Assembly (NCBI GenBank): GCA_017960475.1
Contig: JAGCZH010000023.1
Coordinates: 1 to 64,000, forward strand
Length of the DNA stretch: 64,000 nt
Direction of reading: 5' to 3'
Origin: Bacteroidales bacterium
GTDB lineage: Bacteria > Bacteroidota > Bacteroidia > Bacteroidales > P3
The position numbers and the translations under genes are program-made. Each line of letters opens with the position of its first letter. Positions within the stretch are counted from its first letter, which is position 1. The notes under the pieces are model-generated. The model saw only the letters and a program-made list of their open reading frames with translations, was not told the origin of the DNA and made no database searches. Shown here in pieces: positions 7,386 to 37,712 of the stretch.

Positions 7386-8672
7386 TTATTCAAACACTTC
7401 ATCCGACGCTATGAAGTGGTTTAAGAGGAATTCTGTTGTGGTGTTGACTAACTGTTTGGACTGGGGTGTAAAGGGTTGCCGGACTCGTATGTAGTTGTCG
7501 GTGAAACCGTAAATCATGTTTTCTTTGACAGTGCTTTCCCAAAGGACACGACGGCTGCGTCCTTGTTGGCTCTTGTAGAACTGTTGTTTTTTCAGGTCTG
7601 ATATAGCTTGAAGTTGACGGCTGTGTTCGCGACGTTGATGGACGGCAATACGTCCGTCAAGTTTCAGTACGGCTGTGTTTGGCCGTTCGCTGAACGTAAA
7701 GACATGGAGATATGAGATAGGCAGGCTTTCGACAAATTGTTTCACTTTTTCGAACTCATCCTCTGTCTCACCGTTAAAACCAGCCATGATGTCAGCGGCG
7801 ATACAGGCATCGGGCATGACATGTTTGATTTTTTCCAGTAAACGATGGTAAAAGTCGGTGTTGTAGCGGCGGTGCATAAGGGATAGTATTTTGTCGCTGC
7901 CGGCTTGCAGAGGAATATGAAAATGAGGTAGAAAGGCGCGCGATGAGGCTACAAAGTCGACAATGTCGTTGGTGAGAAGATTCGGTTCGATACTGGATAT
8001 GCGGTAGCGTTCTATCTCCTCAATTTTGTCGAGTTGTTGGGTAAGCTGAAGGAGTGTCTCGCCGTTGTTAATGCCGAAGGTGCCGGTGTTGACGCCGGTA
8101 AGAACGACTTCTTTGGCTCCGGATGCCGCTATTTTGCGAGCCATGGCCACGGTTTCATCTATAGTGGCGCTGCGCGACCTGCCACGAGCGAAGGGAATGG
8201 CGCAATAGGTGCAGAAATAGTCGCAGCCATCCTGTATCTTGAAGAAGGTGCGTGTACGGTCGGCATGTGAAAAAGCAAGATGGAACTCGGGATTGGTGCT
8301 GGGGAGCTCGGAATTGCTGACATTATGGCGGTCAGCGATAAAACGCTCTACATATTCTAGCAGATGGTGCTTCTGTCCGTTGCCTAGGATGATATCGACA
8401 CCTTGTATACCAGCTATTTCAGTAGGGGCGTTTTGTGCAAAGCATCCTATCACGGCGACTATGGCGTCTGGATTGGCGGAAGTGGCTTGGCGTATGGCGT
8501 TACGACATTTTTTCTCTGCTATGGCTGTGACGGTGCAGGTGTTGATGACATATAGGTCGGCGGTATCGTTAAAGTCAACCTGTTGCCAGCCTGCATTGAT
8601 GAAGCGGCTGATGATGTCGGAGGTTTCGGCGAAGTTTAGTTTGCAGCCAAGAGTGTGAGCGGCGATGGTCAT
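7386..8672 (-). CDS. mtaB: tRNA t6A37 methylthiotransferase MtaB
   Basis: This 428-residue radical SAM enzyme converts N6-threonylcarbamoyladenosine at tRNA position 37 to its 2-methylthio form. The N-terminal UPF0004 domain has the three auxiliary-cluster cysteines (Cys10 in LGCKLN, Cys46 in NTCTVT, Cys77 in GCFAQ). The radical SAM cluster is CDYFCTYC (Cys150, 154, 157). The length, the TLGCKLNFAE start and the GCDYFCTYCAIPFARG context fit MtaB rather than MiaB or RimO. The C-terminal TRAM region follows HRREHSRQLQ. It is a solitary minus-strand gene. Confident family call. Confidence 0.93.
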   Translation of the reverse strand: MTIAAHTLGCKLNFAETSDIISRFINAGWQQVDFNDTADLYVINTCTVTAIAEKKCRNAIRQATSANPDAIVAVIGCFAQNAPTEIAGIQGVDIILGNGQKHHLLEYVERFIADRHNVSNSELPSTNPEFHLAFSHADRTRTFFKIQDGCDYFCTYCAIPFARGRSRSATIDETVAMARKIAASGAKEVVLTGVNTGTFGINNGETLLQLTQQLDKIEEIERYRISSIEPNLLTNDIVDFVASSRAFLPHFHIPLQAGSDKILSLMHRRYNTDFYHRLLEKIKHVMPDACIAADIMAGFNGETEDEFEKVKQFVESLPISYLHVFTFSERPNTAVLKLDGRIAVHQRREHSRQLQAISDLKKQQFYKSQQGRSRRVLWESTVKENMIYGFTDNYIRVRQPFTPQSKQLVNTTTEFLLNHFIASDEVFE

Positions 8673-8980
8673 TGGAGCAGAGAAGGGCGGAATATCGTAT
8701 TATTTTTGGGGCTGAAATAGGGAAAATAAAATGTGTAAATGCTGGTTTTTACTGATAGTTTGATGATTTGTCGGCTCTTTTTTTTGAAAAATATTGTGTT
8801 GATATACTTGCTATTGTGGGAAGTGGTGATGAGAAATGTGAGAAAAAATTTGTCGGATTGTGGAAAAAGCTTATTTTTGCAAACGAAATCACTAGAGATT
8901 TCTAACGTTTTGAAGAAATTTTTGGATTTTGTAATAGTGTTTAATGTGATCCTGGACGATGTGGTATCGTCCAGGTTTTT
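8673..8980. other. 308-bp gap between mtaB and the MORN-repeat gene
   Basis: AT-rich, with no credible protein gene. The plus strand holds a complete Bacteroides-type promoter (8849-8879) followed by a strong terminator (8951-8982), suggesting a small RNA. The plus-strand reading frame that crosses this region runs far into the antisense of the next gene and has no coding character. Confidence 0.7.
8849..8879 (+). promoter_or_regulatory. complete Bacteroides-type promoter on the strand opposite to the neighbouring genes
   Basis: TTTG at 8849-8852 is followed after exactly 19 bp by TATTTTTG at 8872-8879, matching the -33 TTTG / -7 TAnnTTTG consensus with ideal spacing. This is the only promoter in the window in which I found both elements. 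Transcription would start near 8886, and no plus-strand gene follows. Confidence 0.65.
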
Positions 8981-8982
8981 TT
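8886..8982 (+). ncRNA. candidate intergenic small RNA (about 97 nt)
   Basis: The predicted transcript starts about 7 nt after the promoter at 8849-8879 and ends at the U-tract of the stem-loop at 8951-8982. It lies between two minus-strand genes and points the other way. The first ~60 nt are AU-rich and fairly unstructured, which could serve as a seed region; the 3' end is a 10-bp GC-containing hairpin with seven U. No open reading frame of useful length lies inside. The end overlaps the stop codon of the MORN-repeat gene on the other strand by two bases. The RNA is inferred from promoter plus terminator only; its function is unknown. Confidence 0.5.
8951..8982 (+). terminator. strong plus-strand rho-independent terminator
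   Basis: A perfect 10-bp stem (CCTGGACGAT / ATCGTCCAGG) with loop GTGGT is followed by seven T (8976-8982). The T-run is present only on the plus strand, so the hairpin ends a plus-strand transcript rather than the adjacent minus-strand gene, whose 3' flank would lack a U-tract. Confidence 0.85.
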
Positions 8983-9997
8983 ATTCATCCAAAGCGTCAG
9001 GACGTTTTAGGGATTTTATGAGCTTTACGCATTCCTCGTCGGGGAAAACAGTGAAGGGCGCCTTTGGCGATAGCTCCAAAATGTCGCGACCCTCGGCGTC
9101 TTTAGCTATACCTACCACGCTGTTTCTGTTTGCTATGATACGGTAACGGCGGTCAACAATGACAAAGTTGTCACTGCCGACACGCTCGTTGATGATGTCA
9201 GGACTGTCGCTGCAGGTTAGTTTTGTGCCGTCGGAGAGGTAAACATTGGTGCCCAGCGACCCTTTAGGCATGAAGTAGGCTATCTCGAATACCGACACCC
9301 AGCGTTCGGCGGGTGCATGAATAAGTATCTTGCGTTCGGCGAGGAAGTCGTTGTTCCATGTCTCGTCGATGGTACATTTGCCGGCTTCGAAGATTCTGTT
9401 GCGGCCATGTCGGGCGCCATTGTTGTAGAATCCTTCGCGGACCATGCTGCCGTCTTCTCCATATTCCACCAAACGGCCATTCAGGCCTCCATCAATATAG
9501 TTGCCGGTTATCCAACCTTTGTCGCCAATGCGTTTCCACCAGCGTCCGTGGCGATGGTTGTCTTTCCAGCCCGACACTTCGGCGGTGTCGCCTTTTGAAT
9601 TGAAAATGACTTGTTGGCCTTGTTTGATTCCCATGCGATAAGAGATGATTTTTAGCATCTTGCCATCCTCGTTATAGAAATGCCAAACGCTGTCGCGATT
9701 CTTCTGGTCGTAGTATCCGTCGGCTAGCAAGTGGCCTTTTTGATCATAGGCTTCGTGGCGGCAGTAGCGACCAGGGACGGTGAAAGTGTTGCGTATCTTA
9801 AGTGTCCCGTCGGGGTAGTAGTAGTTGAAAACGCCAACCTCTTTGCCGTCCTGGAATGTGCCTTCGAAAATGCGGCTTCCATCTTTGTCGGTCTTAATCC
9901 ATTTGCCCTGACGTCGGCCTTGTTTGTCTATTTTGTTTTGGGCGTTGCATGCAAAACCCACAAGTAAGAGTGATAGGATGATTAATTTGTATTTCAT
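8981..9997 (-). CDS. exported MORN-repeat (YwqK-like) protein
   Basis: The 338-residue product begins with a signal peptide (MKYKLIILSLLLVGFACNAQ). Residues 25-210 contain about seven MORN_2 type repeats of the form G-x(3)-Y-DG or DGKxxGVFxYYYPDGT, for example DGKEVGVFNYYYPDG and GGLNGRLVEYGEDGS. The C-terminal 110 residues form a separate unnamed domain. MORN_2 proteins are common, exported and mostly uncharacterised; many databases name them antitoxin YwqK, which should not be taken as a toxin-antitoxin function. The next minus-strand gene upstream (10058-10549) is 60 bp away and may share the transcript. Confidence 0.82.
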   Translation of the reverse strand: MKYKLIILSLLLVGFACNAQNKIDKQGRRQGKWIKTDKDGSRIFEGTFQDGKEVGVFNYYYPDGTLKIRNTFTVPGRYCRHEAYDQKGHLLADGYYDQKNRDSVWHFYNEDGKMLKIISYRMGIKQGQQVIFNSKGDTAEVSGWKDNHRHGRWWKRIGDKGWITGNYIDGGLNGRLVEYGEDGSMVREGFYNNGARHGRNRIFEAGKCTIDETWNNDFLAERKILIHAPAERWVSVFEIAYFMPKGSLGTNVYLSDGTKLTCSDSPDIINERVGSDNFVIVDRRYRIIANRNSVVGIAKDAEGRDILELSPKAPFTVFPDEECVKLIKSLKRPDALDE

Positions 9998-37674: not shown

Positions 37675-37712
37675 GGTTCTTAAGGTTAACAAAGACCTTA
37701 AGAACCTTTTTT
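37675..37712 (+). terminator. rho-independent terminator after pgk, ending 2 bp before the ygiQ start
   Basis: A perfect 12-bp stem (GGTTCTTAAGGT / ACCTTAAGAACC, 37675-37686 and 37695-37706) with an 8-base loop is followed by six T (37707-37712). The next gene's ATG is at 37715, so this hairpin fills the whole space before it. Confidence 0.88.

Follow-up and report, generated by a model that had tools for sequence, protein, structure and literature searches.

The 64,000-nucleotide stretch of DNA analyzed here (hereafter, the window) contains a gap free of genes at positions 8673-8980, flanked by mtaB on one side and by a gene for a MORN-repeat-variant protein on the other (Table 1). The match of the latter protein to the MORN_2 model is weak (28.1 bits, slightly below the cut-off of 29.6). 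Both genes lie on the minus strand, and read in that direction the order is stop codon of the MORN gene, gap, start of mtaB. The initial annotation, which had proposed a small RNA (sRNA) in this gap, was right in describing the gap as empty and the putative RNA as being encoded opposite to both neighbors. It was mistaken, however, in regarding the gap as the region downstream of mtaB; the gap is located upstream (5′) of it.

Table 1. Features of the mtaB-MORN intergenic region and its flanking genes (positions within the window).
Feature	Position	Strand	Remarks
mtaB, tRNA methylthiotransferase	7386..8672	-	TIGR01579, 392.9 bits (cut-off 357.05); flanks the sRNA, divergent
-33 element TTTG, Bacteroidota-type promoter	8849..8852	+	TTTG/TTG 18-22 nt from the -7 box in 51/65 homologues
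-7 element TATTTTTG, consensus TAnnTTTG	8872..8879	+	found 39-93 nt before the core in 65/65 distinct homologues
Putative small RNA, ~97 nt	8886..8982	+	5′ end predicted from the promoter, ~3 nt uncertainty
5′ hairpin, 12-bp stem	8892..8925	+	from the predicted fold; sequence varies among subclades
Core TTTTGTAATAGTGTTTAATG, proposed seed	8927..8946	+	nearly invariant; single-stranded (conservation, unpaired in the fold)
Intrinsic terminator, 10-bp stem + T7	8951..8982	+	stem kept, sequence replaced between species
MORN-repeat-variant protein gene	8981..9997	-	convergent with the sRNA; neighbor of the sRNA in relatives too

Promoter, fold, and terminator of the putative RNA

Within the promoter, 19 nt separate the TTTG from the -7 element. 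The terminator hairpin, CCTGGACGAT-GTGGT-ATCGTCCAGG, occupies positions 8951-8975 with a perfect 10-bp stem, and is followed by seven T (8976-8982), which are found on the plus strand only. Thus, promoter, hairpin, and T-run are all present as initially described, including the strand specificity of the T-run. The promoter pair is the sole exact match in the 64-kb window, but as 0.93 such matches are expected in shuffled sequence, it is not significant when taken alone. The terminator, on the other hand, is not a chance occurrence (0 in 100 shuffles). The initial annotation had also considered this the only place in the window framed in such a way, which is correct with regard to the promoter pair but not with regard to the terminator: a second strong terminator-like hairpin, composed of a perfect 12-bp stem, an 8-nt loop, and six T, is present at 37675-37712 on the plus strand.

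The predicted RNA (8886-8982) folds with -26.5 kcal/mol (z = -4.15 compared with shuffled sequences). In this fold, the stretch between the 5′ hairpin and the terminator (8926-8950), which contains the core, is open, and the probability of being unpaired ranges between 0.8 and 0.97 for positions 8930-8946. Across all homologues, openness of the core is 0.61 vs 0.43 for the 5′ region. In other subclades, the 5′ hairpin is replaced by one with the stem TTAGGT/ACCTAA, or by AAGGT/ACCTT. The latter may be part of an H-type pseudoknot upstream of the core, in which the loop CCAGAAT pairs with ATTTTGG (L018-L031, L045, L060, L090, L124, and others). In one subclade, this possible pseudoknot ends at the core, and compensating versions exist, for example, TTCCCGGT/ATCGGGAA; such changes were noted by eye in L045, L090, and L060. 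In the wider clade to which the window belongs (L005-L015), a segment immediately preceding the core (TTTCGTAATAATTTGGA) is similar to the core (TTTTGTAATAGT), which looks like a partial duplication of the seed; this segment has been lost from the copy in the window.

Conservation and probable loss within the genus

Used as a query, the stretch with these elements matched 75 of 120 genus genomes, some of them at the promoter only. When the 23-nt core was searched for allowing up to two mismatches, it was found in 65 of the 120 genomes, all belonging to this one genus, and in none of 11 other genera of the family; one further genome (G102) contains the core with four mismatches, which brings the total to 66 of 120. 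None of the control sequences for this search matched in more than one genome. In every locus checked, the core is situated between mtaB and the MORN gene; it is identical (GGATTTTGTAATAGTGTTTAATG) across the first 30 syntenic loci, and 14 columns of the core alignment are invariant among 42 non-redundant sequences. In 65 distinct homologues, 96-149 nt in length, the elements follow one another in unchanged order, that is, promoter, a spacer of variable length (Table 1), core, and terminator. The downstream hairpin with its T-run was present in all homologues except those cut by a contig end, and always on the strand of the core. Between species, the sequence of the terminator is wholly exchanged, with stem pairing and plus-strand T-run being retained. 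RNAalifold did not yield a consensus pair from the mixed alignment, which is due to the differing registers of the terminators. A coding function of the core (frame ..DFVIVFN..) was rejected because the third (wobble) codon positions do not vary. Where present, the sRNA gene occurs just once per genome; what looked like a duplicate in G116 turned out to be one locus split over two contigs.

The retention of promoter, core, and terminator in relatives, along with the flanking genes, is the very comparison by which the initial annotation had proposed to put its small-RNA claim to the test, and the claim withstood it. Neither the conserved core nor a trans target, the two central points of the present analysis, figured in that annotation. 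Conservation is the decisive evidence for the predicted sRNA gene; the promoter match alone would be no better than chance.

Outside the genus, an order-wide search with a sequence-only model returned just noise (~17-21 bits), and a search of a plasmid collection gave no match. Scanning 84,980 prokaryote genomes for the exact 20-mer yielded 66 hits, all but three of which are homologues of this genus. These homologues come from Bacteroidales assemblies of rumen, hindgut, or faecal origin, one of which is titled Candidatus Colimorpha pelethequi. The hits in Saprospiraceae, Winogradskyella, and L180 lacked promoter and terminator and were rejected as homologues. Six exact 20-mer hits in viral contigs were taken as chance (L190 and L191 being without visible promoter or terminator).

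In genomes without the core, mtaB and the MORN gene are mostly near-adjacent, usually 3-90 bp apart (L064-L088), so the sRNA gene appears to separate two genes that might otherwise form a single operon. When presence of the sRNA was mapped onto the mtaB tree, ~15 changes were required, at least five of them on well-supported branches. The sRNA is probably an old gene that was present in the ancestor of most of the genus and disappeared repeatedly thereafter.

Complementarity to the translation start of an unlinked gene

The best predicted target is a gene on another contig of the window's genome (G000 contig C33, start 46707), which encodes a four-helix-bundle protein of 155 aa (PF05635 and TIGR02436, both above cut-off). 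Its neighbors, named from reading their sequence, are presumably pyrD and kdsA. The leader of this gene (L003 / L302, G000 contig C33 46680-46711) was first met as a weak opposite-strand DNA match to the sRNA. Translation starts were sampled from ~1.08 Mb (44%) of G000 and from ~30% of a second genome, G095. When the 20-nt core was paired with 48-nt leaders, the four-helix-bundle gene ranked first among 838 in G000, and its orthologue in G095, a locus put into that sample by hand, ranked first among 686. Among 195 orthologue pairs, the combined p for this gene was 2.5e-5; that of the runner-up was 0.0084, which corresponds to chance level. With a longer bait comprising the core region, the leader was again at the top, now of 785 translation starts, with -26.7 kcal/mol. 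The predicted duplex in G000, formed by 5′-CAUUAAAACCUAUUACAAAAUACAAAAAUGG-3′ with 5′-AAAUUUUUGGAUUUUGUAAUAGUGUUUAAUG-3′, involves ~30 nt of the message up to the AUG and has two small interruptions.

Of 119 genomes of the genus, 113 contain the four-helix-bundle gene, irrespective of whether the sRNA is present or not, and the leader of this gene could be read in 109 of them. Typical target sites are CATTAAATACTATTACAAATGG (G072), CATTAAACATTATTACAAATTATTATGG (G039), AAATACTATTACATTATGG (G095), and AAACACTATCACATCATGG (G010). In genomes containing the sRNA (n = 63), the mean pairing energy was -12.20 kcal/mol, compared with -6.17 ± 0.72 for 400 dinucleotide-shuffled cores, none of which was as good. 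In contrast, in genomes lacking the sRNA (n = 20, absence checked) it was -7.50, compared with -6.26 ± 0.56 for shuffled cores. The difference between the two groups (-4.70) was reached by none of the 400 shuffles. Pairing beyond the 1% tail of translation starts of the window's genome was found in 46 of 63 genomes with the sRNA vs 4 of 20 without it. To these numbers can be added a comparison of 14 path-disjoint (i.e., phylogenetically independent) pairs on the best tree, of which 11 had the stronger site in the member containing the sRNA (p = 0.003 by Wilcoxon test, p = 0.057 by sign test on these pairs); restricted to well-supported branches, the comparison comprises five pairs, which are too few for significance. 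Together, these data show that the predicted complementarity to the translation start is conserved and depends on the presence of the sRNA.

The correlation is not strict in either direction. A strong site is absent in ~17 of the 63 genomes containing the sRNA, and one was kept without the sRNA in G014, G115, G100, and G040. Two of these, G014 and G100, have close relatives that contain the sRNA (0.30 and 0.27 changes per column, respectively), which is why retention of the site in these two, not in G115 and G040, fits a recent loss of the sRNA. Once the sRNA has been lost, the target site probably tends to decay.

Proposed mechanism and relation to known systems

The locus is thus likely to specify a trans-encoded sRNA of ~97 nt that represses translation of the four-helix-bundle protein by pairing before its start codon. 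Judging from the conserved sequence elements, the RNA would be transcribed from its own sigma-ABfr-type promoter and would end at the intrinsic terminator. Its single-stranded 20-nt core would pair in the cell over the 20-odd nt before the start codon of the target, thereby blocking ribosome binding and repressing translation. As the pairing occupies the last ~20 nt before the AUG, blocked ribosome binding is the natural reading of the position of the site.

Among the alternatives, the one that fares best, if still clearly less probable, is a trans-acting sRNA with its main job elsewhere, either governing a regulon through short, imperfect sites or being bound by a protein at the core, the four-helix-bundle gene being one target of many. 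The core is nearly invariant, whereas the four-helix-bundle site tolerates changes; because a lone target of such tolerance would not require this degree of conservation, other targets may exist. The sampled translation starts cover less than half of the genome, and the 20 best of them pair somewhat more strongly with the core than with shuffled baits (-20.8 vs -18.95 ± 0.64). However, no second gene is prominent among the 195 orthologue pairs, the sampled translation starts show no enrichment of perfect 8-10-mers to the core, and exact 15-mer anti-core sites outside the sRNA occur at chance level in the genomes of the genus (4 genomes vs 2 control matches).

An activating role of the sRNA, in which it would, for instance, protect the leader of its target or open an inhibitory structure, seems improbable. 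Some target leaders (G095, G098, and G109) do contain a hairpin just upstream of the site, but the position of the pairing, which even reaches the AUG in the window's genome, is one that in GibS results in repression (PMC7366714). Cis-antisense regulation of the MORN mRNA through overlapping 3′ ends, for which the initial annotation had seen room, is very unlikely: the T-run does overlap the MORN stop codon by 2 bp in the window, but of 61 homologous loci, only 10 have a terminator extending to that codon, the distance between terminator and MORN gene exceeds 20 bp in 23 of the 61 (up to 280 bp), and the MORN gene does not include the conserved core. Equally hard to credit is the absence of any RNA gene, that is, a chance promoter combined with the terminator of a neighbor, or a site acting at the DNA level, for instance in binding or recombination: about one promoter pair is indeed to be expected by chance in the window, but the strand-consistent order of promoter, core, and T-run in 65 homologues despite varying spacing, the exchange of terminator sequence with the stem being kept, the plus-strand position of the T-run, with both genes on the minus strand, and the complementarity to a distant leader all argue against it.

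Repression by pairing before the start codon has a precedent in GibS of Bacteroides thetaiotaomicron, which base-pairs with unlinked mRNAs in the region of their start codons and for which the block of ribosome binding was shown (PMC7366714). Like GibS, the putative sRNA is intergenic, has a Bacteroidota promoter of its own and a terminator, is largely single-stranded with a long conserved seed, exhibits conserved complementarity to the start codon region of an unlinked gene, and belongs to a host without Hfq (PMC7366714). Unlike GibS, to which it has neither a sequence match nor an Rfam hit, it possesses another seed and another target; moreover, its seed adjoins the terminator, whereas that of GibS is located at the 5′ end, and its distribution is different, being restricted to one genus. 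The best reading is, therefore, that the RNA would work like GibS in mechanism without being homologous to it. FopS likewise has a conserved single-stranded motif with an intrinsic terminator after it, but it forms a family of 14 copies to which the RRM protein RbpB binds (PMC11697453), in contrast to the one copy per genome observed here. RteR (Rfam RF04181), a Bacteroides sRNA of similar size, was the best Rfam hit; its score is not significant (23.8 bits vs a gathering score of 72), the alignment is poor, and it was not hit in five homologous loci searched. No Rfam 15 family reached its gathering score and none of the weak hits was FopS or GibS; those to rteR, BTnc201, BTnc060, and microRNAs were judged to be chance. 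Several weak hits to animal microRNAs on both strands of L006 (2700-2802) probably stem from a low-complexity, self-complementary repeat.

Hfq (PF17209) was not found in 13 genomes, including that of the window, while 5 control genomes were positive; likewise, no RRM protein (PF00076) was found in 9 genomes of the genus, again with positive controls. Given these results, extended pairing in which no known chaperone takes part, as has been considered for GibS (PMC7366714), would fit. The fold family of the target includes Avd, an accessory protein of diversity-generating retroelements (PMC10053308), the link being through PHROG 3206. As this leaves room for a protein binding its own controlling RNA, the four-helix-bundle protein could conceivably be both repressed by and bound to the sRNA, which would create a feedback loop; we regard this as a long shot.

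No occurrence of the core sequence was found in the open literature searched. Judged by its sequence features, the predicted sRNA is previously undescribed and belongs to a known class, that of trans-encoded Bacteroidota sRNAs acting on translation starts, its predicted target being unusually well supported. Targets with evolutionary support are available for few sRNAs of Bacteroidota, and for almost none outside Bacteroides. The present case would provide an exact sRNA-target pair, predicted across dozens of uncultured species from rumen and hindgut, in which natural losses of the sRNA serve as controls. It would also exemplify regulation by an sRNA in a genus in which Hfq is missing and no RRM protein was detected, and would give an initial clue to the regulation of a four-helix-bundle protein that is very common and of unknown function.
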